Source: Vitis vinifera (Eukaryota; Streptophyta; Magnoliopsida; Vitales; Vitaceae). From it: a stretch of DNA of 64,000 bases. The notes under the pieces are model-generated. The model was not told the origin of the DNA, did no database searches, and was given only the letters and a program-made list of their open reading frames with translations. The DNA lies in contig NC_081818.1 in assembly GCF_030704535.1 (NCBI RefSeq), positions 757,001 to 821,000 on the forward strand. The letters run 5' to 3'. Below are positions 34,041 to 59,856 of this stretch, in pieces; position 1 is the first letter of the stretch, and every line of letters starts with the position of its first letter. Made by a program: the position numbers and the translations under genes.

Positions 34041-34041
34041 T

Positions 34042-37300: not shown

Positions 37301-37388
37301 AAAATGGCTCATGGCCGCGAAGACACACAGAGCTTGAGAGAGAGGGAGAGAGAGCGAGCGAGAATCTAGAGAGAGAAAGTCGACGGAG
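34327..37388. other. Long AT-rich spacer, no gene seen
   Basis: Mostly low-complexity A/T sequence with poly-A/T runs (near 35690-35715, 36350-36370, 37044-37064). The last 100 bp before 37389 is GC- and GA-rich and forms the 5' UTR/promoter of the small membrane protein ('GAGAGAGAGGGAGAGAGAG' near 37337). A minus-strand open frame across 37295-37774 is antisense to that gene and is not accepted. Confidence 0.6.
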
Positions 37389-37637
37389 ATGGCTTGGGGG
37401 TGGTCGATGTTGCGCTGGCTGGAGCTCGAATTCACTCCGCTGCTCTCGATTTTCCGGTGGCCGGAGCTGGTCTCCTCGTACTTCTCTCCGAGGTGGTCCA
37501 GTCGCGGGTTCCGGTGGCCGGACCTGGACTTCTCGGTCGTTGACAACGTGCTGTGGAGTCTGGTCACGGCTTTCGAGTCCGTCGCTCTGATCTCCATGCT
37601 CTGCTTCTTCTTCCTCTTCTGCGGCTGCACTGTCTGA
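37389..37637 (+). CDS. Small single-span membrane protein, 82 residues
   Basis: A single exon from ATG 37389 (MAWGWSMLRWLELEFTPLLS) to TGA 37635-37637. The middle has three 'RWPEL/RWPDL'-type segments ('IFRWPELVSS', 'GFRWPDLDFS'). The C-terminal half is a hydrophobic helix ('ALISMLCFFFLFCGCTV', about residues 54-80) ending in Cys-Gly-Cys. Base composition is much more GC-rich than the surroundings and a GA-repeat leader precedes the ATG, both signs of a real gene. From memory, similar 70-90 residue plant proteins ending in '...FCGCT' exist and have no known function. It looks tail-anchored; the membrane is unknown. Confidence 0.75.
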   Translation: MAWGWSMLRWLELEFTPLLSIFRWPELVSSYFSPRWSSRGFRWPDLDFSVVDNVLWSLVTAFESVALISMLCFFFLFCGCTV

Positions 37638-39138
37638 TCTCTCTCCAGGAGTTCTTCTACAACATTCCGGAAGCTCATAAATGCCGGATTCTCGCCGGCC
37701 GCCGGCATCTTAGGCGGAGTGAGCAATGCTGTAGACCATGAGGGCTGGTAGCTGAGCATGTGGCGTTGAGCCACGTGGAGTGTGAAGGAAAGTTCTTTTT
37801 TTTTTTTCTAATTATATAGTATCGGCCAATCAGATCTGGACACTTCACTTCTCGAGGAGTAGTTCACCAATTTGATCGCACAATTTGTAGTTTTTTTGTC
37901 ATCTGATTTTGTAGTTTTTCTATTGTTTATCTTGTCTTAGTTGTTTCTAAATTTCTTTAATTTGTCCTTTTCAAGACTATTTTTGAAAAAATCATGGAAA
38001 AAAAAAAATTAGAAGAAGAATTTCCTCTTGAATTCAATATCTTCGGTTGAATCAATCATGAATAAATTCAACGATACTGAGTGGAATTTTTCAAAATATT
38101 TTAAAAAGAACTGAAAAAAAAAACCCTAATTATTATCTAATGAGGATGATAAGAAAAATAAATTTTTAGGGCTTTGAAGCGGAATTTATTTTAGCTAATA
38201 ATTGTTCAGAGTGTTTGGGCACGAATTCACAAAAGGAAAGTGAAATACAATATTTTGAAATCTGAAAGACGTGCCAGCCAATTGGGGAGCTGTGAATGAG
38301 CTGTATCATGGATTCAATTGCAGACTTGCAGTAGTCAATTTCATATGTGTAACCAAAAATGCCTGCCAATTGTCTCCATTTGTGGAAGCTTTTTGAGCCA
38401 AAATGGTTGTCTTCCCACCATTTTCTCCCAAAAAAGCTGCATCGATTTGGGGCAGATTTGAAATTTGGTCGGCCCACCCATGTTGCAAATTATGGGACAC
38501 ATCAACATCTGAAAATAGGTGATCATTTCTCCATTAGTCAAAATCAATTATTATTATTTTTGTTTTATATCATCCGATGATTACAATATCATGTTCTATC
38601 ATTTTTTTTATCTTATGGTAAAAGTAATAAAAACTTCCGCTATAAACCCTAAAATTTATAATGAAATCTTTCAAACGCGACTCAATGACAAAATTATAAA
38701 AGATTAAAGTAGATAGGCTTTAGTTGAAGTCCAAAAACCCTAATACCTCTAGACATATCCTTCTAACAGCATATACAAAAGAAACGTTAAAAGGTGAGTT
38801 GTAAGAAATCGGTAGAATGTGAGGTTTTAGGTTTGAATTAGGTTCGAGTCTCAACATGGAACATGAGCTCACATGTTAATCCAATACTTCACTTAAAGAA
38901 GGAATGTGTTGAGTAAAATTATGTATACATATGCTTTTCAGTTATCATTCTTATCAAATACTCATTCATATTTTCCAAAGTTTTCAATGACTTATCCATT
39001 TATCCAGCTTCAACAAATTGTTCAACTCTCCCCGCCTGCCCTAAACTGAAAAAACAATACTTCAATAGCAAGATTCAGCCAAAAAGAGCAAATATGTACA
39101 TATGTTAAAACTTAAAACCCAAGTGACAGCTCCATTTT
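37638..39138. other. 3' flank and spacer, no gene accepted
   Basis: The first few hundred bases are the likely 3' UTR of the small membrane protein. Overlapping open frames on both strands at 38166-38707 show no protein-family features; the region 38160-38530 is less AT-rich than its surroundings and could be an unrecognised gene relic. Confidence 0.4.
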
Positions 39139-39430
39139 CATTCAAATATGAAGGATCATGTTAGCATCTCATAACTTGGTTCTTTTTGCGGTTCGGTTCC
39201 ATATCATTTGTTTTTCTCTGGTTTCTCTTTATGTTGTGATTTTGGGATGACAAAAAGGTTGGAAATCATCAACTTTAGGGCTTGTTGTAGAGTAGTCCAT
39301 GAGTCCTGCAAAGATGACAACAATGTTTGTCAAAAAAAGATCAATACTGCTACCATTGAGCATCATAACTAGGAGAACTTGCTTAGGAAGTGATCACTTG
39401 TGTTATGCTTCATGAGACAAACTCAATTAT
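39139..39430 (-). repeat. Diverged duplicate of the PPR gene 3' flank
   Basis: The sequence parallels 40526-40815 in order: 'GGATCATGTTAGCAT' against 'GGATCATGTTTGCAT', 'TTTGTTTTTCTCTGGTTT' against 'TTTGTTTTCCTCTAGTTT', 'CTGCAAAGATG' against 'CTGCAGAGATG', and 'AACTAGGAGAACTTGCTTAG' against 'AACTAGGAGAGCTTAGTTAG'. Together with the broken PPR fragment at 39560-40240 it marks a tandem segmental duplication. Confidence 0.7.
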
Positions 39431-39545
39431 TGGAGAGCATGATATACATTGTGGATCCAAATTCTAACGGTTTAAGTTTTTAGAAAAATTAGTTGTCGAG
39501 CATGGTATTAGAACCTTATTTACCAGGAGGCCATGAGTTTGACTG
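39430..39545. repeat. Copy of the ICP55-intron dispersed repeat
   Basis: It contains 'GAGCATGATATACATTGTGG', 'AACGGTTTAAGTTTTTAG' and 'GCATGGTATTAGAACC', matching the repeat family seen at 7880-9440. It lies between the duplicated PPR fragment and its duplicated 3' flank. Confidence 0.6.
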
Positions 39546-39559
39546 CCTTCCAAGGTACA

Positions 39560-40240
39560 GGCTCTCCAATTTCAACATTCTTATAAACTCTACATGTTGA
39601 AAAATTAAACCATAAACAGAATCTCATGTAGACATTAAAGCATACAATAAAAATTGGGAATTAAGAAAACCTAACCTTGATTAATCCCATGGAAAGTTCT
39701 GGTGTTCAAGGTTATGATCAGTTCATGATGGAGAGAAACCTCGAGTTCAATTGGCTCTTCCCTTTCTACATCCAAAATAGTCGTTGTGTGTGCTCTGAAG
39801 AATTCGTGCAGTACGTGCTCTTCTCAGCCCCAAGAGAAAACAGAACAGGATCTAACAACAACCTGCCTTTTTTTTTTTCTAGCTCACCCTAAATAAAAAT
39901 AATTCATATATATATATATATATTACATATCACACATACACAGTTTGGACCACTTGACTTAATGGGCTAGTCAAGTGAATTAGGCTGAGCCCATAGAAAT
40001 CAAGCAATAATGTGTCCAACCCCATTATGATGCACAATGCAAAAATTAAATTAACATTGATTTATGACATTATCAAATTGATTATGTAAGTCCACACATA
40101 AAAATTCCAACACAACATGCATTAAGAAGAGCGCCCCAAATGGCAGCATTAGGCTTAGAAGGCATATCCATTCTATCAGAGTAGCCTAAGGCTACATCTG
40201 GATAGAAGCACAACAAATGTCACTGCATTCCAAGTCTCGA
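39560..40240 (-). pseudogene. Broken duplicate of the PPR gene 3' part, split by a solo LTR
   Basis: Pieces match the PPR gene at 41029-42531: 39566-39594 ('TTCAACATTCTTATAAACTC') matches 41306-41334, and 40118-40160 ('CATTAAGAAGAGCGCCCCAA') continues the match at 41337, exactly where the gene reads on. Further parts at 40167-40240 ('ATTCTATCAGAGTAG', 'ACAAATGTCACTGCATT') match 41489-41571 with deletions. The reading frame is destroyed. It lies directly downstream of the intact gene in the same orientation, so it is a decayed partial tandem copy. Confidence 0.8.
39595..40112. mobile_element. Solo LTR inserted in the PPR pseudogene
   Basis: A 518-bp block with ends 'TGTTGAAAAATT' and 'AAAATTCCAACA' (TG...CA, imperfect inverted repeat). 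It is flanked by CTACA (39590-39594) and CAACA (40113-40117), a 5-bp target duplication with one change. Removing the block and one duplicate restores the PPR alignment without a gap, which fixes the borders. No gag or pol inside; it includes an (AT)n run near 39905-39921. It is probably a Copia-type LTR. Confidence 0.8.
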
Positions 40241-41028
40241 TAACCTACTTTTTCTTCTTATCAATGATTTGGTTTCAAATTTTCCTAAGTTTGCCAAATC
40301 CCATGGATTATTTATCCAAGCTTTTGCCCAAATTGTTCAACACGATTAAGGGGCTACAAAATGACTAAAACAAAAAATAATAATCATTTTCCAATCAGCA
40401 TTCAACAAAAAAACAATTGCACATGCTAAACCAAGTCATCATTCCACTTTTATGCAAGTATGAACATATGATTAAGCTATATGTAGGGAATGGAATCTCA
40501 TCTTTTAGCTATTTATCACATGGGAGAGCAGGTAAAATGGAGGATCATGTTTGCATTAATACCTTGTTCTTTGTCGATGGTGGATATCCTTAATCAGGGT
40601 TCAGTTCCACATCTTTTGTTTTCCTCTAGTTTTTCTTAATCTTGTGCTTCCAGAATGAGAAAAACATTAAACCCATCAACTTGTAAGTTTGGCTTAGCAC
40701 TTCCCCTGGATCCTGCAGAGATGCCAATGGTGCTCATTAAACACAGTTTGACCTTGCCAACCATTGTGCATTACAACTAGGAGAGCTTAGTTAGGATGTG
40801 ATCACCTTTGATGGTTTTATATTGGAGCTCTTTTCATTACTACTCAGGGGATCATGTCAACTTGGTTTCTTTGCCATTCCATCTGAGAAGTTCAACCAAA
40901 TTCACACGAAAAGTCCTCTTTACCATGATGTCCCCTGCAACTAAATCAGAAGGCTCACATAATATGAGCAAAAAAAAAATTTGAGGTTATGAATCTCAAA
41001 TCCTGGATTTGAACTTGAAGCACTCAAT
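40241..41028. other. 3' flank of the PPR gene
   Basis: Non-coding. The part 40526-40815 is the source (or sister) of the diverged copy at 39139-39430. No other gene or element was recognised. Confidence 0.6.
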
Positions 41029-42531
41029 TTATTGTTCCTGAAATTCCCTGATCGCTTTACTAAGATTCAAACATATTTCTACCGCACAAGGATGTGATTT
41101 GTCTCCCACCACAAACTCATAACAAATGCCACCCACTTCAATCAAGCTACAACCAGGGCCCTTTCTACAACCAACCTCCTTCATTTTCAGCTTCACCTTC
41201 TCCACCTCATCCCATCTCCCAGCTTCGCGATACAAACTCAACAAAGTCATATAAAGAGCCCCATTCCATGGCTCATCCTTAATCAGCCACTGGGCAGCAA
41301 GCTCACCGATCTCAACATTCTTATAGACTCTACAAGCATTAAGAAGAGAACCCCAAATGGCAGCATTAGGCTCAAAGGGCATCTCGCTGATAAGTTGCAT
41401 TGCTTGATCAATCAATCCAGCCCGACCAAGAAGATCAACCACACAACCGAAATGCTCGACAGTGGGCTCAACCCCAAAATCGCTCTCCATTCTATCAAAG
41501 TAGTACAACCCTTCATTTACCAGACCTGAATGGGAGCACCCAGATAGGAGTGCTACAAATGTCACTCCATTTGGCTTAACTCCAGAGTCCACCATTTTCT
41601 CAAAGGCCTCAATTAATTGCTCACCAAGACCATGCATTGCCAGTCCTGATAGCATTGCTGTCCATTCACCCACATGCTTCTCTTTGGCTCCTTCAAAAAC
41701 TAGCAGTGCATGCTCTATGCTACCGCATTTGAAGAACATATCGATCAAAGCAGTAGCAATTCGACTATCGACATAATCCCCCTTACTTTGACACACATAG
41801 GAATACACCCATCTGCCCACATCTAAAGCTCCTAAATTAGCACAAGCACAAAGCACACTCATCACACAAGAATCACTCGGCTCAATCTTCACACTGAATA
41901 GCTCCCTAAACAAATCCAAAGCTTCCCTAAACCGATTCCCTCTGACATAAGCCGCAATCATAGCACTATATGAAATAACACTTCTCTCAGGCATTTCATC
42001 AAACACCTTCCTCGCAGCCTTCACAGAACAAGAATTCGCGTAACACGCGAGTAGAGTCGTCCAACTCGCAATGTCTCGATAACCCATCCCATCAAATACC
42101 CTCCTGGCGCTGTCCATCCCAGAGTTGGACCCATACAAGTGAATCAAAGAATTCTCAACGAAGACATGGCCACCTAAGCCGAATTTCAAGGCTTGGCAGT
42201 GGAGTTCCTGGCCTTTGGGGAGGTGTGCGAGGGCGGAGCAGGCCTTGAGCAAGAAGGGGAAGGTGTAGGTGTCGGGAGGAGGGCCGTGGCGGAGCATGTG
42301 GCGGTGCAGGAGCAAGGCGTGAAGTGGGGTTGGGCTGGCGGCGTAGACCCGGAACATGGTGTTGTAGAGGTAAGTGGAGGGGTGGTGGATGGCATCGAAG
42401 AGGAGGCGAGCGTGGTGGAGAGAGGAGGAGGAGGAGGAGGTGTAGAGAGTGATGAGCTTGCGTAGATGGTTCTCTTGCTGGTGGAGACCTGAGGTGATGA
42501 GATGGGCGTGGAGCCGCTTCGCTTCTTGCAT
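41029..42531 (-). CDS. Pentatricopeptide repeat protein, PLS class, E subgroup
   Basis: A single exon of 500 residues. The first in-frame ATG is at 42529-42531 (MQEAKRLHAHLITSGLHQQE); extending seven codons upstream would need a GTG start and is rejected. The protein is a run of PLS-type PPR motifs such as 'ARLLFDAIHHPSTYLYNTMF', 'ARRVFDGMGYRDIASWTTLL', 'ARKVFDEMPERSVISYSAMI', 'PNGVTFVALLSGCSHSGLV'. It ends in an E domain ('NAAIWGSLLNACRVYKN', 'WDEVEKVKLKMKEVGCRKGP', 'GCSLIEVGGICYEFVVGDKS'). There is no DYW deaminase. Family role: site-specific organellar RNA binding, often recruiting a separate DYW deaminase for C-to-U editing. The target and organelle are unknown. The 5' half is GC-rich compared with the flanks. 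A broken partial copy follows at 39560-40240. Confidence 0.93.
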   Translation of the reverse strand: MQEAKRLHAHLITSGLHQQENHLRKLITLYTSSSSSSLHHARLLFDAIHHPSTYLYNTMFRVYAASPTPLHALLLHRHMLRHGPPPDTYTFPFLLKACSALAHLPKGQELHCQALKFGLGGHVFVENSLIHLYGSNSGMDSARRVFDGMGYRDIASWTTLLACYANSCSVKAARKVFDEMPERSVISYSAMIAAYVRGNRFREALDLFRELFSVKIEPSDSCVMSVLCACANLGALDVGRWVYSYVCQSKGDYVDSRIATALIDMFFKCGSIEHALLVFEGAKEKHVGEWTAMLSGLAMHGLGEQLIEAFEKMVDSGVKPNGVTFVALLSGCSHSGLVNEGLYYFDRMESDFGVEPTVEHFGCVVDLLGRAGLIDQAMQLISEMPFEPNAAIWGSLLNACRVYKNVEIGELAAQWLIKDEPWNGALYMTLLSLYREAGRWDEVEKVKLKMKEVGCRKGPGCSLIEVGGICYEFVVGDKSHPCAVEICLNLSKAIREFQEQ

Positions 42532-43029
42532 GACTGACTGAATTGATCGCACGTAGTTTTTGAAATTGATTTATAAATAAAAAATATGAAAATATAATTA
42601 AAATTTATATATATATATAAATTATTTAATATAAAAAAATTTAAATGACAAGGGATTAATATAAAAATTAATTTATTATATAAAAATCATTTTTAAGAAA
42701 TATTTAGAAACATGGAAAAATACATTGAGAATATTTGAAGTTTTCGAATAGATTTATTTTTAAAAAAATGGATAATTATTTTTTCACATTTGATAAAAAG
42801 TTTTTTTTTTTTCATATTTTTTAACATTTGGTGATTTTCTTTTTAAAAATCAATACTTTTTTTTTTAAATGTGATTTAAATTGTTTAAAAAAATTAAATA
42901 AAAAAAATTAATTTTTAATTATGAAAATTAGGAACTAAAAAATAATTTTGAAAATGTGTTTGAAGACCTAAATAAGATTTTTTTTTTCTTTGGTTTTAGC
43001 ATGTTTTAAAAATTGGATTGGATCGACCA
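42532..43029. other. PPR 5' flank, AT-rich, no gene seen
   Basis: Low-complexity A/T sequence between the PPR start and the repeat into which the large LTR-bounded element inserted. Confidence 0.6.
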
Positions 43030-43166
43030 GTCATGGTTCTGATTTGATCCAATCAATTAGATAGAAAAATCTGACCGACGAACTTGGAAACCCCGCCCTC
43101 ATGACCCTATTGGAAAGCCCTGCCGAAATTAGGTGATATTTCGGTGTGGCAAGATTCGAACCCCCA
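43030..43166 (-). mobile_element. Part of a tRNA-like SINE/repeat split by the large element
   Basis: On the minus strand the sequence next to the insertion reads 'TGGGGGTTCGAATCTTGCC' (B-box-like), and the other half lies at 48043-48105, where the minus strand has 'TTTGCCCTAGTGGAATTGGG' (A-box-like). Joined across the LTR-bounded element, the two halves give one A-box/B-box unit about 60 bp apart, as in a tRNA-derived SINE. The family is not identified. Confidence 0.45.
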
Positions 43167-44117
43167 TGTAGACCCCCATTTTGGGGCTCGGTTTCTCACT
43201 TTTATGCAGCTTGTGTTGCCAAGTGTCGCAACCCTAAGAGACCACATGGCATCTCTTAGTTGGCTACTATGGAATCAGACAATGCTTTTTGGAGGAACAA
43301 TCAAGGGTGGACACCTGTAAAGGTTGTCTGGCCGTTAGGAGAGTGTTTTTGGCTGCCAGCTGCATGGTAGTGGGGACGGTACCTGGAGGGCAGGGGGTGT
43401 CGTCTGGCAGCTGCAGGTTTTTACTTTAGTGAGGGAAGGGAGAAAACCAGAGAAAAAAGGCTAGGTGGAGGAGGAGTTTTGAGAGGGAAGGAGGAAAAGA
43501 AACAGAGGAAGTTTCTGGAGAGAACAAAGAGAGCATTGTGAGTAGCTTGAGAGAGAGGAGTAGGGAGCTTTCACAGAAGAGGCAGGAACAGAGGAGAGAG
43601 GTTGCGGCTAGCTGAGAATCAAACGACTTTTGATCGAAAGGATCACTCAGGTTTAGCGATTTTTACACTTTGAGTTCTCCATTATTTCAGTCGTTCCATT
43701 TTTCTCCTGGATATTTGGATGCGTATTTTGGCGGTCGAATATGAAAATCGGTTTCTCAGCTTCCAGTCGTTTAATCTCTGTTTGTTTTTCTTTCATTTCT
43801 CTATATGAGTTGCATTGTGATTATACTGTTTATTTGTGTTAAAATGACTCAAAAACTCCCCACCAGCTCTTAACTCTCATGGTTTTTCATGGAGGAAAGA
43901 CAGATTTAATCGTGTTACCTATTTCATATACTCTGTTTTCCTTCACTGTGCCTCATTGTCTATTCTGTGAGTAGAAGTTCATCTGGATGCTCTGTTTTTG
44001 TGCTGGCTTCCTTGCTTTTCACTCTCTGTTCTCGGAAGCTATTCATACCCCCAAGGAGAAGGGTCATGGCCGGTATTACCCTTGATTTTCGTATGGGCAT
44101 AGTCTCTGAACCTGTTT

Positions 44118-44415
44118 TGTAGACTGGATGACAAGTTTTTGCTTATGGACCTAGCTTCGTTGGAAAGCAAACTCCACTTTCCTCTGAGAAACCTCCCAGA
44201 AGCCAAGGCTGCCCTTACAGTGGGAAGAACAGCAGCCAATGCTATTTATGTACCTCTTGCTCAACAGGGTTCTATAGATTTGTAAGGTGGGATGCTTCAT
44301 GCAGGAGAAAAGGATTACAAAACTGCTCAGGGATATTTCTTTGAATTAGTTCCTTGAAGTTTTCAACGTTCTCAAAAAGCCTCGAGCAATGTTTAGCCTC
44401 GAGTATATGTTGCTG
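44118..44415 (+). pseudogene. Captured fragment of proteasome lid subunit RPN6 (PSMD11)
   Basis: The translation reads '[20 protein letters not shown]', '[20 protein letters not shown]', '[13 protein letters not shown]', then a stop in place of Gln (TAA), then 'GGMLHAGEKDYKTAQGYFFE', and after a frameshift '[20 protein letters not shown]'. This is the PCI-adjacent helical region of RPN6 without introns. It is broken and incomplete, so it cannot make a functional subunit. The minus-strand open frame 44039-44239 is antisense to it. Confidence 0.85.
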
Positions 44416-44420
44416 GTGCT

Positions 44421-44605
44421 GAATCCCAAGCAGGGCAGATATTCTGTCAGGTTGGTGTTCTTGCTTTGACGGGTCCTCTGCACCATGTTGACGATGACCT
44501 CTTTGGGTGGTGGTTATGTGAACGACAAGTCCAATCTGGAGGACTGAATGGTCTGCCAGGGAAGTTTCCTGATGACTACTACTCATGGTGAATGCTATCA
44601 TGGAT
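44421..44605 (+). pseudogene. Captured fragment of Rab geranylgeranyl transferase beta subunit
   Basis: The translation reads '[20 protein letters not shown]', '[20 protein letters not shown]', '[16 protein letters not shown]', matching the prenyltransferase repeat 'H-A-G-Q-I-F-C...G-G-L-N-G-R-P-x-K-x-P-D-x-C-Y-S-W-W' of RABGGTB. The catalytic zinc ligands of that repeat are altered (Cys of 'DVCYSWW' is Tyr here; 'SHAGQ' is 'SQAGQ'). The next Trp codon has become TGA. It joins directly to the RPN6 fragment at 44415-44421. Confidence 0.85.
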
Positions 44606-44719
44606 GAATGGTTTACTCTCCGTCTTCTCTTTCCAGGGTCGAGCGAAGCAGATGAAATTTACAGAATATGCATTGTTATGGGCAACGCAACATTGATGGG
44701 TTCACTATTCACGTATGCA

Positions 44720-45240
44720 TGCCACTCTTACTCCTTCAAATACCCATTAAGCTCCCTGCTCATGTTCCTATTCAACTTTAACACCCCACCCATATCTGTC
44801 TACACTATTTCTGCCCGTATATAGGCCCCCTAGACCCACTACCTTTACCCGCTCATTAAACTAGTGTTATACCCATCTTTGCATCCCCACTTACACCTTC
44901 ATCTCACCACTCCCGTCTTCATCTTTTTCTAACCAATCCAGTACCCCACTTACCCATATTTTCTTACCATACTTCTCACCCTACACAACACCACATATCC
45001 ATCCTGTATAAGTGACCTTCAAGCCCATCCCACATACTCACTGCCAGTTGCCCATACCTCTTTCATCCATCCTCAAATCATTTCCTTCCTATTCTTTCAT
45101 CTGCGTGGAGTTCATGTGTATGACTTCCTAACCCCTTTTTCAACGCTGTCCCTCGAGATCCACTTTCTACTCAGTTCACTCCCCATTACCACCAACCATC
45201 CATGCTATCAATAACGCCTCAACTCATCACCTTTCCATGC
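44720..45240. other. G-poor, C/T/A-rich stretch inside the LTR-bounded element
   Basis: About 500 bp in which G is rare on the plus strand (long runs such as 'CCCACTTACACCTTCATCTC'). It does not translate into a recognised protein. Strand-asymmetric composition of this kind is unlike the flanking captured fragments. Origin unknown. Confidence 0.6.
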
Positions 45241-45267
45241 ATGAAATACACTCAAATCTCTGTTCTG

Positions 45268-45450
45268 GGGTTTCTCTTTTCGATTCTAACCCAGAGATGC
45301 CTTATTCAAAGGAAGAAAGATCTGTTTCACCTGCCAACTCGGGTTCACCCATTCGGGGGCAACGACCAAGGTCAAGGTCGAAGTCAAGGTCATTGTCGAG
45401 GTCTAAGAGGAGTCGCTCGAGAAGCCGCGATTCGATAGATGCCGACAGGA
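45268..45450 (+). pseudogene. Captured RS-domain fragment of an SR-type splicing factor
   Basis: The frame reads 'PYSKEERSVSPANSGSPIRG' then 'QRPRSRSKSRSLSRSKRSRS' and 'RSRDS'. This is a typical plant RS domain. Only this C-terminal piece is present; no RRM is seen nearby. Which SR gene it came from cannot be told. The frame is open to 45551 but loses RS character after about 45440. Confidence 0.7.
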
Positions 45451-46087
45451 GACACTTGAATTTGTTACTACTGCTGATCAAAGTCCATAACTTACCCACG
45501 TACACCCATCACAGCCTCCTCTCTTCCAGTTTGGTCAACTCAGGGAGTTAGCAGTCCAGATGCAAGTCAAAGCTGTGGGGTTTAGCAGATCATCAAGGCT
45601 CTCCTGCAAGTGTGGGTTTAATATTCGTTACTAGAGAAAGAGATGGGGAGTGCACTAGAACAAGATCAGCAGAGAGATAGAGTCTAAGCTAAGTCCATCA
45701 ACTCTAGTCACTAAAGGGGCCTCCTGAATTGATGAAGCTATTAGTTTGTTTTTGAGAGAGAAGTTGACATTTGCTTCAGTGATTGACGGCTCAAAAGAAA
45801 GGGGAATGGATTTCTAACAAATCGGACACGTTTCAGCAGTGACATGAAAGTCTGCGCCAATGCTTCAGATTCATTCACACGCACTGTAAGATTTGGAGAC
45901 CCAATGGAAATGGTTGTTGGCGGGTGCGATTTTGCTATGAGGATGACTGTACCTGCAGATAGGAGACTTGGGCACTCATTTTCTGGTGATACTACTTCTA
46001 GTCACACACAAAGAGAAGATAGAATTCATGGGGAGCAAGCTTTGACTTTGGTTTTGTGGATACGAAGAAAGGAGCTCTCACTTTGGA

Positions 46088-46660
46088 TATAGGAACTTTG
46101 GCTATTGATAGTGATATTGCAGGCTCATATCTTTACCTCACCTTGGGACTAAAAGAATTAGGCAAAGGGGTTATAGGAACCCCTCGGGTTTTATTGCTTC
46201 TTTCTTCTCTTCTTTGGAGGTCTGTTCAGAAAAAATGAGACATTACTAGGGACGGCACAAATTAAAGATGCCATTACAGTATTTCATGGATCAAGAGCAC
46301 CCACTCTGAGTGTTCGACGATATATTGACCGCATTTTCAAGTACTCAGGCTGTAGCCCATCCTGTTTTGTTGTTGTACACATTTATGTGGACAGATTCCT
46401 TCAACACACTGATGTTCATTTAACTTCCCTCAATGTTCACCAGCTTCTGATCACAATGTGTAATGGTGGCAGCAAAGTTTATAGATGATGTCTTCTTTAA
46501 CAATGCTTACTATGCCAAAGTGGGGAGGAGTAAGCACAACAGAGCCGAACAGATTGGAGATGAAGTTCTTGTTTAGTCTGGATTTCAGACTTCAAGTTAC
46601 GGTTGAGACATTTAGGAGCTACTGTTCACAATTGGAAGGAGAACCGACTAGAGGGCTTCC
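46088..46660 (+). pseudogene. Captured P/U-type cyclin copy without introns
   Basis: Pieces in order: 'LYLTLGLKELGKGVIGTPRV', 'LLLLSSLLWRSVQK' then a stop; in another frame 'TAQIKDAITVFHGSRAPTLS', 'VRRYIDRIFKYSGCSPSCFV', 'VHIYVDRFLQHTDVHLTSLN', 'VHQLLIT'; a one-base insertion near 46457; then 'DDVFFNNAYYAKVGG' and 'NRLEMKFLFSLDFRLQVTVE'. This covers nearly the whole cyclin box of the plant CYCP/CYCU family, without introns, with at least two frameshifts. It is dead as a cyclin. Lack of introns suggests capture through RNA, if the parent has introns (not verified). Confidence 0.85.
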
Positions 46661-46689
46661 CAAGGACATGCAGAATATGATCCAGTTTT

Positions 46690-47095
46690 GGTAAACGTGT
46701 TAATTGGTCCAGCTGTTGCCAGGATCAACAGTATGAACCAGACAGAGATTGTTTGTGGTGGATTTGAGCAACTTGATGTGTCCACCAAGTTTAAACATTG
46801 GAGCATCCACTGTGATGTGTCATTGAAGTTCTATGGCCTAAATGCTCCTGAAGGTTCATCGGCACAGAGTGTGAGCAGCACGCAGAAGGAGAATGCATTA
46901 GTTGCTAGTTTGGTACACTCACCTGTTGGAGAGAATGTGGGCTGGGAGTTTTCAGCTACTACTTCTCCCTGCTATGCTACGGTTTTGTTGGAAAGTTATA
47001 ATCGTTTTCTTGAGTTTGTGCAGAGGAGTAAGGCGGTGGCTCCTCCCACTAGAAAATGCAGCGACAGGATCGAAGGGTCAAATGTTGGCATCTCT
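46690..47095 (+). pseudogene. Captured fragment resembling a VPS13-like lipid-transfer protein
   Basis: An open stretch reads 'CGGFEQLDVSTKFKHWSIHC', 'DVSLKFYGLNAPEGSSAQSV', 'ENALVASLVHSPVGENVGWE', 'ATTSPCYATVLLESYNRFLE', 'FVQRSKAVAPP'. From memory this resembles the segment of plant VPS13/chorein-type proteins preceding 'SPTVALETATALQ'. The match is a recollection and was not searched. It is a fragment with no start of its own and loses similarity after about 47050. Confidence 0.5.
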
Positions 47096-48381
47096 CAGTG
47101 CATTCTAGTAAACGTGTTCCTCTAGGATGGGTCCAGAAGGGAATTCTCCATGCATGGCCACCTTAGGCATGTAACCCAGGGGCACGTGTCATATTCCCAT
47201 TCTCCAATCCTCTTTGTTTTTGAAAATAATTCTCCCAAACTTCATTTTGTAAATAATTTCCTAAATTCCGGTTTTTAAATAACTTCAGGTCTTCAAAGCT
47301 TTCATCCTTAGAGTTTTCAGGACTCAAAATCCCATTTTCAATAAAATTTGGTTGCCATTTTCTTTCTGGCAAGCCACCTTTGAATTTTCTCAGATTTTCA
47401 AAATGTTTTAAAATAAGCTAGAATAAAATTCCGTAATTCCAAGCAAGGGAATTTATGGAATTAATTCATGCAAAAATGAATTGGGTCTTGGTGGGGACCC
47501 TACATATGAGATTCCATGATTGATTGATTTATTTGTCATGCATGATTGGTTTACTCTATTCCTTGATATGCGCTTAATTATATCTGTTCATTGTTCACTA
47601 ACCATTTTTCATGATAGCGCGTTCGTGATTGCCGCCCAGGTGCGCATCTATTCATATTTTGCCCATTCTTTATACATGCTTTACTTCTCATATTGTGCAT
47701 GATCGATTTGAGTATTCATCGATTTTCTCATTGATTGCCATGATAGCTTCATTCTATTAGTAGAGACCCGACTTTAGGGACTTAGAGGGGTGCTACGGTC
47801 TTTACCGTACCTTCCCGATAAGCAACCTGACCCCCGAACCCGATCCGGTTTTTCGTAGATCACCTTTTCCAAAATAAGGAGTCGCGGTTTTCTTTCTTAT
47901 TTTGTTTACCCTTTAAAAATAAAACAAAAATAAGTGGCGACTCCAAGTCATTTTCAAATAATCAATAAAAATCAATTTTTCAAACAAAATTCGAGCTCGC
48001 CATCGAGTGGGAAACGCATTGAGCCGAAATGCGGGGTCCACACCCCAATAAAAGGTTCATAGTGCATCCCCAATTCCACTAGGGCAAACGTGCCATTTGA
48101 TTAATAATATGCACTAAAGAAATATATATTAAAATTTATGATATAAATAAAATATTAAAAAAACACTTTAAATAACAAATTAATTATAACTATTTTATAA
48201 TTAAATGGAAAATTTTCATTTAATTGATTAGTAAAAATATATCATAATTTTATTCATAGTGTTTTTAATATTATTAATATATTAAAAATTTATACATTTA
48301 TCATCATTTATTTTATAATATATCATAATTTTAATATTAAATAGATTTTAAAATTAAACATATTATAATCACAATATTATC

Positions 48382-48860
48382 ATCAAATAATATTTTATAT
48401 AATTCAATAATCAATATACACTTATCAAATTTATATTTTTTTTATTAACATGTATAATATAATATATATATATCAATTTATTAGAAAAAAATAACTTTAA
48501 AATGTCTATTATGTTTTTAATTTCATTTCTAAAAGTTTGATTTTATATTTTTATAAGTTTTGATCAATTTTATATTTACGGATATTTTGTGTTAAAATAT
48601 CCATTGAAATATATTATAATAAAATATCATAATATAATGATCAAATAATATTTAATATAATTTAATAATCAATATATACTTATCAAATTTATATTTTTTA
48701 TTGACACGTACAATATTATAAATATATATATATAAATTTATTTAATAAAATAACTTTAAAATGTCTATTATACTTTAATTTCATTTCTAAAAGTTTTATT
48801 TTATATTTTTCTAAGTTTTTGTCAATTTTAGGTCTACTGATATTTTATGTCAAAATATCC
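48382..48860. repeat. AT-rich tandem duplication of about 220 bp
   Basis: Copies at about 48382-48602 and 48643-48860 share 'ATCAAATAATATTT', 'TACTTATCAAATTTATATTT', 'TAACTTTAAAATGTCTATTA' and 'TTTCATTTCTAAAAGTTT'. Non-coding. It is followed by 'CGATATATC'-type short repeats (48863-48925). Confidence 0.85.
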
Positions 48861-49484
48861 AACGATATATCTCCGATATATCCGTAAAATCGAAATACCG
48901 ATATATTTGTAATTACCGATATTTTCATCCTTGGTTGGAAAGCCTCGCAACCTGGAATCCCAAGTTAAAAAAAACTCTTCCCCTTTTTGCCTACCCCACT
49001 CCTCCCTTCTTCCAATTTTTTTTTTTTTTTTTTTACCTTATCTCATTATTTATTTTCTTTTATATTTATTATTTTCTACTTCACGATGTTAAAACTTATA
49101 ATTTTAATTTTAAATAATCCAAATATTATAAATTTAAATAAATTTGTGATTTTAAAATAAGTTTTTTTATTTAAAAATGAATTTTGAAATTTTAAATTTT
49201 AAATTAAAATTAAAATTTCTAATTTGAAACTAATTTTTTGATTTTTCAAATAAAAATTTAATTTTTAAATAATATATAAATTATTATTTTATTTTAATAA
49301 TTATTTTAAATTTTAATAATTTATAAATTATATATTTATGACCAGTTGGAATTGTGAACCGATAACTTTTTCGGTTCACTGAGCGGTTCGATTTTGAAAA
49401 CATTGGTTTTAGGTTTAGATATTTTATTTTTTAAAAATAAAGAAGTTTATTCCCGAATTGCAGGGTTAGGTTTCCAAAAGCTGA

Positions 49485-49556
49485 AAACGACGTCGTTTCA
49501 ATAGACTGCATCACGGCCTATTTGGAGAGTTTGCAGAGGCTTAAAACGGCGCCGTT
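49485..49556. promoter_or_regulatory. Paired palindromes upstream of mS41
   Basis: 'AAACGACGTCGTTT' (49485-49498, perfect 14-bp palindrome) and 'AACGGCGCCGTT' (49545-49556, perfect 12-bp palindrome) lie 59 bp apart centre to centre, 90-160 bp before the mS41 ATG. Both share the AACGrCG...CGyCGTT pattern. GC-rich islands in an AT-rich flank suggest a core promoter; the binding factor is unknown. Confidence 0.55.
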
Positions 49557-49644
49557 CAACCGGCTGAGGGGAAGAAGCGAGAGACCGGTACGGCTGTGTG
49601 GTGTGGGTGGTGTAGAATCTTGAAATCATAACAGCAGATCGAAA

Positions 49645-52600
49645 ATGGCTTGGAGGCAAATCATCAGCAACAGAATGGGAGTTTCATGGCAAGCTGGGTT
49701 GCCTAGATTCTTCTCCAAATCCACTCCTTATATAGGTACTGATAACATCATCTGTTTGGTTGCTGAGAAAACAATTTTTTTTATTCTTCTTCTTCTTATT
49801 ATTAATTTAACGGTTAGGCCGAAATGCGCAAGATGGAAAATTACGTTTGGTTGGTAAGAAAAACGAGGAGAAGTGTATAGAAATTGAGTATGTCAAGTTA
49901 AGCCTAATTATTTTAGTGGGTTCATGCCCCAAGTGATTATCAATCTAGGGTTTAAAAAATTTAAATTCCTCTTGTTTTCCTGCATTTCTTCAACCATCAA
50001 AAGTGGGGGTTTGGGCTTTTGATGAGTTTGAAAAATGGGTTGGTCTGATTTCTGGCGTTGAAGGTTAGAATACTGGAATTTGTAGAGACCCAAGTGGCCA
50101 AGCTTGAAACTGAGATGAGATAATTGTATTAGGTTCATGCCTCAGATTCTAGGGTTTAAAATTTTAAATTCCTGTTATTTTCTTACATTTTCTCAACAAT
50201 CAAAAGTGGGGTTTAGGGTTTTGCTGAGTTTGAAAAAGGGGTCTGTTTGATTTGTGGCAGTGAAGGTTGGAATACCAGAGTTTCTTAATGGAATAGGTAA
50301 AGGGGTTGAGACCCATGTGGCTAAGCTTGAAACTGAGATAGGAGACTTTCAGAAGCTGCTTGTCACCCGCACTCTCAGGCTTAAGAAACTCGGCATTCCT
50401 TGCAAACATGTGAGTATTTCTCTATTCTGCATATCTGTATGCTGCTGATTTTTCCATATCAAGTTTAACTGGGCCTCATGTGATTTGTAAAAAATTAATG
50501 ATGTTCTTTAATTGTAATCTGATCATGATTCAAAGCAGTAGCATCTTTTATGGGCCCAATTGATCAATGTTCTTTACTTATACACTTATCACGACTCTTT
50601 CAGTATGATACTACTTCTAGTTGTTCTTCCAGCATGTGTTGTTTTTAGGCAATATGAAGGTCTTGAGTTATAAAATGGAGCTAGTATATGGCCTAAAGGC
50701 GATATTCATATTGGTTTTGGCAGAGTAATTTTTCTTTGTTAGCAAATGATTATATGGGTTACTCATACATGGCCTTTTTCGAAGTTATGTATATAATGCT
50801 AGAAAGGCATGAGTATCCTTGCTTCTTAGAGGGGAAAATTGCAGACCTGGACCAATATTATTCAAATTGCTGTTGGATTGCAACCAAATGATCACGTTAT
50901 GACTGGTGGTTCCTTTTGAATCTGTAGTTTGTTGAAGTTGCATTTCTACTAGTTGCTTTATTTTCTTTGTTTTTGAGAGTCCAATGAAAAAATGATATGC
51001 ATTATTTAAATTTGTTAGGCAAGGAAAACTGGTAGATTTCCCTTGAGGCGGCCGAACATTAGATGCATTATTGAAGTTTTTTATTCAGGTGTAAGGGTCT
51101 TTGGTTTTTTCCCCTTTTATTTTTGAGAGATTCTTGTACGCATCCCTTCAACATGGGATGTGCTCCCTTTAGGTGTTTGTTTCTATATAATCTTATTTAT
51201 TTATAAACAAAAGGTTTTTTTCAAGTGCTGAAAGTCTTTGTACAAGTTGAGTTAAAATAAATAAATAAATAAATAAATAAATAAAATAAAATAAAAAAAT
51301 CCTATTTTTCCATTCCTGAAACTTTATGGCTTTTGGCTTGGCCTTCATGTTGCAGCCTCTTCGACCTGAATCAAATATTCTTCTTGATTACAACATCTTC
51401 AACCAGAATCACATCTATCCTTAGTGATAAACTTACAGATCTTCAGAAAATGACAAAACAATTTCTTTGCCTCATTCCATCTACAATTTACTATGCTATT
51501 CTTCATGACTGAGATAGCTTAATTGGGAACCTAACACATGGGTCACAAGGACAACCCTTTTTTCCCCCTTGGTTTAGAGTAGGGCATGGTCTCTTTATTT
51601 TGGACATCAACACCCTATTTGCCTGAATGTTTGGAAGTTCTACACAATGAGACAGGGTAGATAGTGATAATAAGGCTAAAAATGTCCAAGTGGGGATAGA
51701 ACAGGATACTTGAAAGTTAAGGATCTGTTTGAGAACTGTTATTGAAAACAGTTTTTTGTTCTTTTAAACAATTTCTAACTTACAAAACATGTTTGATAAT
51801 TTTTTTACTGAAAAACAGGTTTTTGAGAATTTGTTCTGAAAACAAGTTGTGTTTTAGAGCAATTTTGAGACGTTTTAAGGTGTTTTTTTGTAAAGTATTG
51901 TAAAAAACAATTAAAAATGTGGAGAATAATTTGAAAATTTTGGCATCGTACACAAGTACATGGTACTTTCATGGAGAATAAGTTGAGAAAACTATTTTTT
52001 ATATTTGAATTCTCAAACAAAATTCTGTTTTTGATAACAATCAAGAGCTGTTTTTGAGAACATCAAACAAGCCTAAATCTCTCAGATATGTAAGAGACTA
52101 GTTTGGTGTTGCATGATTCATGTTGCCCATCATGCCCATCATGAACAATGGCATTGTCTAGAAACTCCCATGGTCACACACAAGCAATAAACTTAAGCAA
52201 ATTTATTAGCTGCAATATTAGATTCCTCATTCTCCAAAAAAAGATCATACTTAATCAGTAAAATAATTGTGTGCTTCTCCACATAACTATGGGATATGCC
52301 TGAATGGAAGCTATGTCCTGACGGAAAATCAGGTCTCTTATGGTTACTTTTGTAAACTAGTGGAATTTACATTTCTCTTGTCACAGCTAACACTCAGTTT
52401 CATAAAATAATTTCCATTCTAAAGAAAAATATTTGTTAAAAAAATGGGGTGGATTTTACACTGGACATGTCTGGAACTGAAAAAAGCCCATGTATGGTTA
52501 CTATGGTACTATTGCCTTAAATTACTGTTGCCCTGCCAAATTTTCCAAAGAAACGACCTCCCCTGCCACTGATAAGGCCTTTACACTAAATCTTTTGTGG

Positions 52601-52788
52601 TTTGTGGCTTAATTTGTTGATGCCAATGAATTAATTAGAAAATGTGAAGTTTCTTGCTCTTTATTAAATCAATTCTAATGATGCGTTTTGTGGTAATGCA
52701 GAGGAAGCTGATCTTGAGACACACCCACAAGTACAGGCTGGGACTATGGAGGCCTCGGGCAGAGCCCATCAAATCTCAATCTTCTTAA
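49645..52788 (+). CDS. Mitochondrial small ribosomal subunit protein mS41-like (IGR motif)
   Basis: Three exons: 49645-49735, 50261-50409, 52702-52788; 327 nt, 108 residues. The start MAWRQIISNRMGVSWQAGLP and 'RFFSKST' look like a mitochondrial presequence. The mature part 'VKVGIPEFLNGIGKGVETHV' ... 'LKKLGIPCKHRKLILRHTHK' ... 'YRLGLWRP' fits the IGR motif family (yeast Fyv4/mS41; Pfam IGR): 'I-P-x-F-L-x-x-I-G-(K/R)' then 'L-G-I-(P)...R-(K)...I-L'. It would act in the mitoribosome small subunit. All junctions keep frame. Intron 1 holds a decayed duplicate of exon 2; intron 2 holds a MITE (51721-52073) and an (AAAT)n run near 51257-51290. The gene is convergent with the membrane-protein gene at 53597-56049. 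Family assignment is from motif memory. Confidence 0.8.
49906..50340 (+). repeat. Tandem duplication including mS41 exon 2, left copy decayed
   Basis: Copies 49906-50119 and 50121-50340 share 'TCTAGGGTTTAAA', 'CAACAATCAAAAGTGGGG'-like sequence and 'GTGGCYAAGCTTGAAACTGA'. The right copy carries the start of functional exon 2. In the left copy the acceptor 'GGCAG' has become 'GGCGT', and 21 bp coding LNGIGKG are missing in frame, so the pseudo-exon (50059-50119) lacks the IGR core. Confidence 0.9.
51721..52073. mobile_element. MITE with TAA target duplication in mS41 intron 2
   Basis: Ends 'GGATCTGTTTGAGAACTG' and the reverse complement of the right end 'GGCTTGTTTGATGTTCTC' match as terminal inverted repeats; TAA flanks both sides (51718-51720, 52074-52076). 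The TAA duplication and G-G start are Tourist/PIF-like. About 350 bp, non-coding, related to the element at 6626-6928 and to a partial one ending at 54332. Confidence 0.7.
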
Positions 52789-53596
52789 GTATCATAGAAC
52801 TAGTCTTTTGAGGGTCAGCACTCAAGACCTTTTAGTATCACTTTGGCTGCTGCAAAATTGATTGCTGAACATTTTTACATGAAACCGTTCTGGAGATTAC
52901 TGTTTTGGGTTCTTATGTTTGTACTCTTCATGTATCCTCATTCTGGGGTCTTATAATTTAGATCCAAGGATTTGCTACCTATTTGTCTCAAATTTACCTT
53001 GAACATAAAGGTTGGTTCACTGGTTCAATTTCAGTTCTGCATTCCTGCCATCCTGTAGCCTATCTTGTCTCTTTAGCAGTAGCAGATTACTTTTGCAGAT
53101 GTTTACGTAACCAATCCCTAAAATGGAGAATGAAATGTGCTTATCTATTGGGTTATGGGCAACATTTTGCCAAATGTTTCTGTTGTATCAATGGACCTAG
53201 TGATTCATATTGAAAGATAGAGGTGGGTGCAGAGTAGACAATTTCAAAGTACACTCCCCATTCATTAGATTGAGGAGATCACCAACATTTTGTGATCTTG
53301 GACAAGAAGATTTGATCTTAGGACCACAGAACTCTCCATTTGTGTACTACTATCGGGGAAAGCCAAGCAAGAAATCAGCATGGGCAAGGTTCTGAACTTT
53401 GTCAAAATGTGTAAAAACAACAAATTTCTGCAGTGTGTTAGCTTCAATGTAAGAACAGGGGCATGTCTCTACAAAATTACAAAAATTCGAATTCCTCCAA
53501 CAGTTCTGTACAGCCTAGAACATGGCAAAAACATCAAAGCTCTATACATCTGCAGACTTCTGAGAACTCTTCCTAGAAAACCCCAGCTGAAAATTT
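52789..53596. other. Convergent spacer and 3' UTRs
   Basis: Lies between the stop codons of mS41 (plus) and the membrane-protein gene (minus). Open frames here (52983-53213, 53210-53395, 53265-53447) have no family features. Confidence 0.6.
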
Positions 53597-56049
53597 TCAT
53601 TTTCCTCGAAATTCCTTTCTTCCATCCTGCAGTGCTGCTTGTTGAAGAGAAGCAGATTCTGCGTAACTGCAAAAAACAGATTGATTTTTCACAAGATATT
53701 TTTACCATTGATGGTGGATAAACATTAAAGAAAAATAAACTTTGAAGCTAAGGAGAGTGATATACCTTGGAAAGCCAGAACCAGGTCCATTGGTTTCAGT
53801 TGCAGGTGGGTTCATGGAATGCTCGATGCTAATCATACCACCATCTCCTGCAGTCTCTGGAGATCCATGGAAGCTCATATTTGAACTGCTGCTCCTAGAG
53901 CAGATTCCTGTAGTGAACATATCTTATCAGAGAGAGTAGATGATAGAATATATGCATTTATTACGACAAAAGGTACTCACTGAAAGAGGGAAGAGAGGCT
54001 TAAGGACTTTTGGTAAAGTTTTGGAAGAGAGTCCTATGTTTTCAGGAACAAAATTTTGTTCGAGAACTCAATTATAGAAAACAGCCTTATTCTGTGTTTA
54101 AAGCAAGACAATATGAACGAACTAGTGAAATTTGTTCTCAGAACAACCTAAAAAAACCAGTGAGAAAACCTAAAACTCTTACAAGAATCATCCTGTTTTC
54201 AAACCAAATTCTCAAAAGCTAGTTTTAGTAAAAAAAAAAAAAAAGAAGGGTTTTTGAAGTAAGGAAGTTATTTTCTGTTCAAAAAACAGAAAACCGTTTT
54301 TAAAAACAGTTGCCAAACAAGCCCTTGCTCATCCTATTATAAGGCAAAGTGTTATCCATTCTGAAAATAGAGTAACAGCAGCTGTAGTGCTGACATGAAA
54401 GTAAAAGCAGGCATGAAAATACACAAAAAGAATACTGGGCAGCAACTTATAGACTTCCTATACAGTTTCATACTTGAGAAGATTTTTTTGATGATTTAGT
54501 GAATCACACACAAGAATGCGGGAAGGTGGACCATCGAGACTAAATGCACACACATTCATAAATTTTACAGGTTTATTAAATATTAGTAGCAAAACCTACA
54601 TACTCACAAAGAAAAAGCAATAGGGTTATATCATAAAGGGTATATTTTTGGAAGCCCCTTTTGATTTCGCATAAATACTTCATATTGCACTTTTTAATAG
54701 ACTATTCTGACAGCTTCTTCTGTGTATCTTTAGAACAAATATGCTGATAGCTTCTATTTGTTTTATTTCACTTTTTTTGATAGATAAGCAAGCAAATAGA
54801 CTAGCAAACTCCCATCTGAGTTATCAATAAGCAACCAAATATGAGATATTGAATAGCCAAGCACCGAGGAAAGTGAAATTTAGTTGCCTCGTCAACATTT
54901 TGGTCAAAAATCAACAAAGCTTCAAACCCAACTTTGATGAACTTTGTGGAGTGGTTAAGTTTTAAGCAAGACGTGGTTGTTATTTTTAGTGTACCCTCTC
55001 GCCTTCTTGGCTTTGGGCACTTGTTGAAAGGGAATGGTGACATGCAACACAACAGTATGTGAAGAGATCCAATGGGTTTGAGGAGAAAAGGAAAAAAATG
55101 CCTGAGAGTAAAAGATCTGCATTATCCAATCTATTGCTGAATTTAGAAAACCTAGTCTAAAAAACCCAAGAAGAATCCTAAGTCCTTCAGTAGTGAACTG
55201 GAAAATCAATGATGAAATGGGTGGAATAATGAGCCTCAATTCTGGATTAAGATTATGGACAATGTTGGGAAGCGTTGTTTCAATTAAGATGGCCTCAATT
55301 AGGAATCATAACAAAAAAATAAGACAATGCAGACAAATGCGTGCAAGAAAATGAAGCACAGGAACTTTTGACGTAAAATTTACAACCATAAGGTCATGGC
55401 CTACATCACAATTAAATCATCATAGTGACCAACCAGATTGTACATATGAATCATAATACCAAGGTGGATATGATTAGAAAAAGTTCTGAAAGAACAAATT
55501 ACCTTGAAAGATCAAAATGAAGCAAAAGAGGATGGTGATGATCATTGCAATGAAATTACTGCATGATAATGAAGATGCCTTTTCCGTTTTCATCTTCAAT
55601 GCTTTCATCCTTTCAACCCTTGCACGCTTCATCATGGCTAGTTCAGTTATTTCTCTAACCATCTTCATATCAGCTGCATCCAATGATGGACCTCTAGGAG
55701 CCCGGGGTGGCTTAGAAGGCTTTTTAGAGCCTATCTTTTTCCGCTTCTCCTTGTTCATTTTCTTCCCCACAAACTCCATTTGCTCTTCTCCCAACCCACC
55801 CACCAATGAGTCCACACTATTCCCACAAGCCCCACCATAATTTAACTCACTCTTGCATATGCTTACACTATCTGCACTCCTAATACATCCATCAAATCCC
55901 ACAATCCCGCTCCAAGCCCTTCCTAATGTTTTCTTTGCAGGTATGCCACCAGAGGACCACGGGTTTCTACCCCCCTCTTCTTCACTTGTATTCCCCCCAC
56001 TTTCCAAATCAACAACTAAATCACTTTCCTTTGAGTCTGGATGACCCAT
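53597..56049 (-). CDS. Uncharacterised plant membrane protein with basic stalk
   Basis: Three exons: 56049-55503, 53907-53766, 53666-53597; 759 nt, 252 residues. The start is MGHPDSKESDLVVDLESGGN, an acidic, disordered N-terminus. Next come a Lys-rich stretch ('KKMNKEKRKKIGSKKPSKPP', 'RAPRGPSLDAADMKM', residues 96-130), a charged helix ('REITELAMMKRARVERMKAL', 132-151), and one transmembrane segment ('FIAMIITILFCFILIFQ', about 166-182). The tail, encoded by exons 2-3, contains 'SRSSSSNMSFHGSPETAGDG', 'MISIEHSMNPPATETNGPGS'. I recall similar unnamed plant proteins with the 'PRGPSLDAAD' and 'AMLKRARIERMKALK' phrases; no function is known. Exon 1-2 splicing is firm ('FQ|G'); the last exon ('YAESASLQQAALQDGRKEF') rests on frame and a good acceptor. 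The start has a short spacer from a 5' leader that may begin near 57000. Confidence 0.75.
54010..54332. mobile_element. Partial MITE related to 51721-52073 (tentative)
   Basis: It lies in the intron between exons 1 and 2 of the membrane-protein gene. The right end 'AACAGTTGCCAAACAAGCCC' and internal 'TTCTGTTCAAAAAACAGAAA' match the subterminal style of the other two elements; the left end is unclear. Confidence 0.4.
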
Positions 56050-59789: not shown

Positions 59790-59847
59790 GGCTTCTTTGT
59801 TGTATAAGATGAAGGTGTTGTCTGGTTAATTCTTTGCTACTAGTTGG

Positions 59848-59856
59848 TATTTATAG
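59848..59856 (-). promoter_or_regulatory. TATA box of the exonuclease gene
   Basis: On the minus strand 'CTATAAATA' sits about 60-67 bp upstream of the ATG at 59789. Position and match to the plant TATA consensus support it; transcription start is inferred to be near 59820. Confidence 0.65.

Follow-up and report, generated by a model that had tools for sequence, protein, structure and literature searches.

Positions 43,167 to 48,042 of a 64,000-nucleotide stretch of grapevine DNA (Vitis vinifera, assembly GCF_030704535.1, contig NC_081818.1, positions 757,001 to 821,000 of the forward strand; the whole stretch is here called the window, and its coordinates are used throughout) are a solo long terminal repeat (LTR) in which pieces of several unrelated host genes lie side by side. 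This focal LTR very probably belongs to a recently active family of the Tat clade, into whose LTRs host mRNAs entered in spliced form, via template switching, and were then inherited, amplified and exchanged. An earlier reading of the same letters, made without database searches (the sequence-only reading), had proposed either a very long solo LTR or a non-autonomous LTR derivative acting as a collector of gene fragments; beyond it, we find that capture occurs in the LTRs of an apparently recently active family, that the clear matches are sense-only, and that modules are common to different LTRs.

Five captured fragments lack stretches that separate their two matches at a host locus (the assembly searched comprises 495.6 Mb in 21 contigs, given here as C numbers, with the window on C14). 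In the case of the cyclin fragment, C7 gives two matches (94% and 91%) that flank a gap, and the 274 bases across the gap read ...GATGATGC/GTAAGT...TTGCAG/ATTCTTCAA, where the focal LTR reads GATGATGTCTTCTTT; a 253-bp GT-AG intron is thus absent from the fragment. In the same way, the VPS13-like fragment has two matches on C5 (94% and 92%) separated by GCACAG/GTTTGC...ATGCAG/AG, where the focal LTR reads GCACAGAG, so that a 268-bp GT-AG intron is absent as well. By match coordinates, genomic bases are also missing from three pieces in other LTRs of the family: 216 bases of C3 from the protease piece of the C5 LTR, whose two matches leave 7 query bases unaligned between them, 85 bases of C17 from the helicase piece of the C15b LTR, and 814 bases of C9 from the NDK piece of the second C9 LTR. 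Split matches left out of the intron count are C11:18299484/18301768 (another mosaic copy), C17:6065914/6067327, and a 95-bp step near position 780 of the focal LTR in four relatives. No retained intron was recognised among the fragments with two matching exons, which alone can reveal a loss; long contiguous matches may represent further copies of the LTRs. Capture by Helitrons and Pack-MULEs is mostly of genomic DNA, with introns kept, and this is not the pattern found; the absence of parental introns by which LTR-mediated retroduplication is recognised was found instead, to the base in two fragments and by coordinates in three. So host mRNAs appear to have entered the LTRs as spliced RNA, in the sense strand, as the sequence-only reading had surmised from an intron-free cyclin copy.

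Orientation was assessed across 15 LTRs with both ends and lengths of 2.9-6.5 kb, namely the focal LTR, four from full elements, one 5' LTR preceding a site resembling a primer-binding site (PBS), and nine that are apparently solo. The sample was fixed by similarity of the 3' end and the presence of both end motifs, within about 300 kb of sequence in total, and siblings on C9 and C19 were added for the middles that they share with the focal LTR; the C15 element in the sample also has a short middle match to it. Excluded were L025/L026 (C18), L032 (C19:6199480) and L035 (C10), which have no single LTR with both ends, and, as LTR sources, L001 and L003-L008, which have short flanks. By eye, target duplications match at 5-6 bases in 12 of the 15 LTRs and at four of five bases in one; the other two are the right LTR of the C3 element, which runs into a second PBS-like site, and the C19 5' LTR, whose partner lies outside the fetched sequence.

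Each LTR was scanned with Pfam in three sense and three antisense frames (48 frames on each strand, one LTR being scanned in two pieces), with 3589 of the 4761 bp of the C9 sibling (75%) covered. The sense frames gave 17 LTR-by-family matches at E ≤ 1e-3, to 16 distinct families (listed in Table 1), in 10 of the 15 LTRs, while none of the 48 antisense frames gave a match at that threshold, the best being a BED zinc finger at 0.0021. All 16 families are therefore in the sense direction (two-sided sign test 3e-5, families treated as independent). Matches remain in 7 of 12 LTRs once the focal LTR and its two siblings are set aside, and three of the four full-length relatives contain host domains; the scan took in one LTR per pair, and the two LTRs of a pair are 99.2-99.95% alike. 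Capture of host genes, which the sequence-only reading had described for a single element, is thus widespread in the family, and its clear cases all lie in the element's own direction.

These observations bear on two other routes by which fragments might have accumulated. Capture at the DNA level, by a Helitron or Pack-MULE that carried gene fragments into an LTR and was then copied along with it, would draw on the several gene fragments that one Helitron can hold (PMC6431247) and on the greater frequency of capture in Helitrons than in LTR elements reported for maize (PMC2774510), but the absence of two GT-AG introns, with three more by coordinates, contradicts it for the cyclin and VPS13-like fragments, and both the antisense frames empty at 1e-3 and the presence of different genes in different LTRs speak against it. 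We consider it highly unlikely and reject it on intron absence and orientation, no systematic search having been made for the end signatures of these elements. About as improbable is the serial insertion into LTRs of processed pseudogenes made by long interspersed nuclear elements (LINEs), which would likewise be intron-free and which have been proposed as a cause of the many retro-pseudogenes of grapevine (PMC7935947); such insertion should give both orientations, and is contradicted by 16 sense families out of 16.

Several considerations weigh against the spliced, sense-strand origin or limit its reach. Three of the five intron cases rest on match coordinates and not on letters, and a loss shows only in a fragment that matches two exons; the H+-PPase, DXS, RPN6 and Rab geranylgeranyltransferase pieces are uninformative in this respect. 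Two of the 17 domain matches (FPP and DUF3537) fall under their curated cut-offs, and 5 of the 15 LTRs have no Pfam match at 1e-3. Between 1e-3 and 0.1 the strands differ little (five antisense rows and eight additional sense rows, not counting the other frames of the cyclin), and the contrast between strands consequently rests on the strong matches. Finally, matches that share an LTR cannot be treated as independent; with the LTR as the unit, and the C9 sibling left out, nine of nine are sense.

The identification of the focal interval as a solo LTR is founded on its ends and on its relatives. Its TG...CA termini, re-read as TGTAGACCCC (from 43167) and GGGGTCCACA (up to 48042), are complementary at nine of ten positions, and CCCCA adjoins the repeat immediately on each side, so that the near-inverted repeat and exact duplication of the sequence-only reading both hold. 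No retroelement domain, gag and pol included, was found in its six frames (Pfam, E ≤ 1), again in agreement with that reading. This absence would equally suit a non-autonomous derivative with two LTRs of its own inside 43167-48042, but no direct repeat joining both ends was found, and the complete LTRs of relatives share its types of start and end and are adjoined by a PBS-like site or a purine tract. We therefore discard the derivative, whose probability we regard as next to negligible, and retain the solo LTR of the two forms that had been offered.

When the whole focal LTR was compared with the genome, the 40 best of 3770 candidates gave 47 matches, 39 of them to its last 0.1-0.9 kb. A second copy of the entire 4.9-kb LTR, or a pair of it in a full-length element, is not among these 47 matches from the 40 best candidates, where only the 3' end and internal modules recur, and the assignment as an LTR is accordingly made at the level of the family. 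With the 3' end removed from the query, the first 0.13-0.25 kb was found at 10 other sites, three pairs of which are 14.6-15.9 kb apart on the same strand, as expected for two LTRs of one element.

The search for the same ends, and for complete two-LTR elements, yielded four full-length relatives (on C3, C5, C12 and C15), 18.1-21.3 kb long by coordinates and each with two long direct repeats. Their LTRs start with TGTAGACCCCCATT and finish with CGGGGTCCACA; AAATGGCGACTCCACTGGGGA lies directly 3' of the 5' LTR, which is followed by the PBS-like TGGCGACTCCACTGGGGA, and GAAGAGGGGCATATT or a one-base variant of it, the purine tract, lies 5' of the 3' LTR. The LTR pairs measure 5441/5428, 4042/4034, 3335/3333 and 2753/2854 bp, with p-distances, in the same order, of 0.0041, 0.0005, 0.0030 and 0.0084. 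This divergence of 0.05-0.84% suggests recent movement of the family, with LTR ages of about 0.02-0.3 million years at a rate of 1.3e-8 that is taken from another study (PMC5664825) and may not be that of the host. In one relative, the C15 element, gag lies in one open reading frame, reverse transcriptase in another, and RNaseH, RVT_3 and integrase in a third. If RVT_3 represents the second RNaseH, the arrangement agrees with that of RNaseH, second RNaseH and integrase given for Ogre and Retand, of the Tat clade of Ty3 (PMC6317226). Sizes agree with such an assignment, the LTRs of the family measuring 2.8-6.5 kb against 1.9-6.5 kb in Ogre, itself described as a giant element (PMC6431247). The Ogre-like Ty3 affinity suggested by the sequence-only reading thus appears to hold at the level of Tat, Ogre or Retand, as judged from domain order in a single relative.

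Two features of these elements were noted in passing. The interiors of all four contain direct-repeat arrays that end about 0.5-0.6 kb 5' of the 3' LTR. In the C3 element (C3:163468 onward, L021), the right-hand LTR is followed by a second PBS-like site, and a more distant LTR end occurs 1.3 kb further, in a tandem or nested arrangement.

Comparison among the 15 LTRs shows a mosaic organization in which the last 0.76-0.92 kb or so is common to the 14 others, which were chosen by it, and the middles are mostly private. The exceptions are the two siblings. The focal LTR and the solo LTR on C9 are 99% identical over 1717 bases, yet the last 0.88 kb of this sibling is merely 77% alike, and the solo LTR on C19 is 96% identical over 553 bases with ends that are 79% alike. 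Individual pieces recur as well: the 211-bp Rab geranylgeranyltransferase piece has seven further sites at 90-92%, of which two lie 14.8 kb from each other on the same strand, besides longer matches on C9 and C11, and the helicase piece occurs at two C7 sites 15.4 kb apart. Shared middles with divergent ends, together with recurring pieces, indicate that captured pieces move among members of the family and from one LTR type to another.

Two observations concern the 5' part. At 43942-43953 (focal-LTR positions 776-787), four relatives have 95 extra bases between a match ending at position 787 and one starting at 776, with a 12-base overlap, which may represent a deletion between short direct repeats in the focal LTR. 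In several LTRs the 5' part (about 450-800 bases) reads, by eye, as a GA-rich leader, after which come a splice-donor-like CAGGTATG or CAGGTAAG and a T-rich stretch.

Of the mechanisms that would bring host mRNA into an LTR, the best fit is a reverse transcriptase that switches template to co-packaged mRNA, where we infer the co-packaging, the moment of the switch and the movement of modules. Adjoining sense-only, spliced pieces of unrelated genes, in LTRs that differ from their partners by less than 1% (99.2-99.95% alike), are the expected product of an excursion of reverse transcriptase to co-packaged mRNAs. During synthesis of minus-strand cDNA, the enzyme would leave the element RNA, copy parts of one or several host mRNAs, and come back; if the switch fell within the portion of the genomic RNA from which the LTRs are made, both daughter LTRs would receive the mosaic. 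The mosaic could then be inherited, amplified and swapped between members by the same template switching, and recombination between the LTRs of one mosaic element would have left the solo LTR at the CCCCA site. The main rival is read-through and splicing, as in retroviral oncogene transduction, in which a transcript from the LTR promoter would splice from a donor in the leader into neighbouring host exons, and the chimera would be packaged and recombine into the LTR. It would likewise yield sense-only, intron-free pieces, and the donor-like sequences behind the GA-rich leader of several LTRs could serve it. However, the locus matched by the cyclin piece and that matched by the VPS13-like piece are on different contigs, which would require serial events, and the cyclin match seems to start in the amino-terminal coding part, not clearly at the start of an internal exon. 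We thus regard read-through as rather unlikely and prefer template switching.

The features of the focal LTR are collected in Table 1. All of its host pieces are plus-strand, as had been read from the letters, and they exceed chance by their Pfam E-values, by antisense frames that are empty even at E ≤ 1, and by the two exact intron absences. The names RPN6 (44118-44282 matches a PCI-domain chain and solved chains of 26S subunit 11/RPN6, best E 1.3e-21), Rab geranylgeranyltransferase beta and cyclin, all given by the sequence-only reading, are borne out by protein matches. The piece described there as probably VPS13-like has gained a DNA parent with an intron, and its name is tentative, as neither Pfam nor solved structures gave a match; a contiguous 87% match of C2:5017815-5018092 to 46872-47148 indicates that this piece may extend to 47148. 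The cyclin fragment, presumably of P/U type, matches PF08613 in one frame and more weakly in two others, with one solved chain (PHO80) at E 0.0044, and this spread over three frames shows it to be broken by frameshifts. With 0-2 stops in each of 14 captured stretches examined, the pieces therefore look like decaying fragments and not like genes. A comparison of the cyclin piece with viral contigs gave no relative, and 45787-46089 had no match among solved structures at E ≤ 5. The sequence TTTTGTAG ahead of the RPN6 piece was considered as a splice acceptor or intron edge and dropped, the DNA matches starting at that AG (focal-LTR position 955), which is read as a coding AGA codon. Outside the focal LTR, another solo LTR (C14b; L034:1628-1804, minus-strand LTR) contains part of RDM1 (4.4e-15), which belongs to the machinery of RNA-directed DNA methylation.

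Table 1. Features in and around the focal LTR (window coordinates), with host protein families found in sense frames of the sampled LTRs
Feature	Position	Strand	Evidence
Left target-site duplication CCCCA	43162..43166	.	direct reading
Focal solo LTR, Tat (Ogre/Retand-like) Ty3 family	43167..48042	+	4876 bp; ends and duplication, two-LTR relatives
5' end module (U3-like)	43167..43406	+	10 other sites at 71-98% (at two sites, first 130-151 bases only)
Shared segment	43481..45196	+	99% identical to solo LTR C9:10875404-10880164, duplication CATAG
Leader-like repeated module (focal-LTR positions 378-787)	43544..43953	+	whole or large part at 14 other sites, 75-98%
RPN6 (26S proteasome subunit) fragment	44121..44415	+	protein match; DNA matches C14:6495702-6495992 (86%) and C1:13421915-13422214 (79%), candidate parents
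Rab geranylgeranyltransferase beta fragment	44404..44614	+	solved chains E 3.2e-25; Pfam Prenyltrans 1.1e-11
Possible CDK-like kinase fragment	44591..44686	+	weak: CDK2 chains, E 0.018
Arginine/serine-rich (RS) coding stretch	45300..45440	+	translation only
Shared module	45535..46087	+	96% identical to a stretch of solo LTR C19:3597009-3602232 (minus), duplication CCCAT
Cyclin mRNA fragment	46077..46657	+	Pfam PF08613 9.7e-13; locus C7:2152406-2153236; junction 46491/46492
VPS13-like mRNA fragment	46662..46983	+	locus C5:2512578-2513168 (minus); junction 46867/46868
3' module of LTR	47151..48042	+	wholly or mostly common to the 14 other LTRs examined, which were selected by it
Right target-site duplication CCCCA	48043..48047	.	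direct reading
Sense Pfam families, focal LTR and siblings			Prenyltrans, Cyclin (focal); Prenyltrans (C9 sibling); HSP70 (C19 sibling, two frames counted once)
Sense Pfam families, full-length relatives			LSM, Peptidase_C1, Amidohydro_1 (C5); Tubulin_C (C3); Aminotran_5, DUF3537 (C12)
Sense Pfam families, other LTRs			NDK, Arm (second C9 LTR); FPP (C17, 6e-4); Helicase_C, H_PPase (C15b); RDM1, DXP_synthase_N (C14b)

The 12 kb on each side of the focal LTR (31167-43166 and 48043-60042) together encode PPR/E motif, importin-alpha IBB and Arm, mS41 SAM and 3'-5' exonuclease domains, and no retroelement domain was found in these 24 kb at E ≤ 1e-3, which places the focal LTR in genic surroundings. 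AT-rich direct repeats with a 258-base spacing occupy 48368-48870, close to its right end, and ARAGORN (bacterial code) found no tRNA in the window. Inside the LTR and near its end, GTGGCGACTCC at 47934-47944 resembles the PBS-like sequence located just after the 5' LTR in full-length relatives, as though the LTR had taken up an older LTR/PBS boundary.

The family is of interest as a plant retroelement, in all likelihood recently active, in which a single LTR, normally the site of the promoter, holds several pieces of spliced host mRNA, so that captured pieces are doubled with each jump. Its LTRs offer a natural record of template switching in which orientation, splicing and junctions can be counted genome-wide. 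The family may also bear on the high number of retro-pseudogenes in grapevine, which has been discussed in terms of LINEs (PMC7935947), although the link is weakened by the fact that that study searched hard-masked sequence and placed the surplus in introns and untranslated regions. A further-reaching proposal, which we put forward as doubtful, is that the true capture zone is the roughly 1-5 kb between the 5' U3/leader part and the conserved 3' part of about 0.85 kb, and that this zone would be continually refilled with spliced mRNA pieces and reshuffled among elements by strand-transfer errors; the LTRs would then be a sense-strand archive of the transcriptome, contributing to the retro-pseudogene surplus and possibly returning small RNAs against their donors, including the silencing factor RDM1.

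Gene capture by LTR elements is already known, while the recurrent capture of more than one host mRNA in single LTRs of a family was not found in the literature searched, from which subscription journals are mostly absent, and such an absence is not proof. Host genes or their fragments occur inside LTR elements of rice and sorghum (PMC3726574) and maize (PMC2774510), and in pepper and other plants the capture of spliced mRNA by LTR elements has been described with intron loss as the test (PMC5664825). In the rice and sorghum study the genes were counted within full-length elements. Ogre resembles this family in its long LTRs and giant size (PMC6431247) and apparently in the second RNaseH between RNaseH and integrase (PMC6317226), and differs in that host mRNA mosaics in its LTRs are not known from the literature consulted, which mentions long noncoding terminal repeats generally. 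Abnormal template switching has been invoked for BARE-2, with foreign sequence in its LTR, and for Veju, a lengthened element (PMC13317346; model in PMC1950507), but there the donor was another retrotransposon or unknown DNA, as compared with host mRNAs in grapevine. Helitrons and Pack-MULEs share the collection of gene fragments, several per Helitron (PMC6431247). The intron absence and sense-only order of the grapevine family do not fit them. Maize Bs1, an LTR retroelement with segments of three host genes (PMC13317346), has these segments placed within the element sequence, in contrast to the LTR location and the recurrence of different genes over a family seen here. Finally, Bs1 is a known exception to the result of a maize survey that, under the conditions it used, never saw two or more nuclear genes represented in the same LTR element (PMC2774510), whereas single LTRs of the grapevine family hold up to four supported host pieces.

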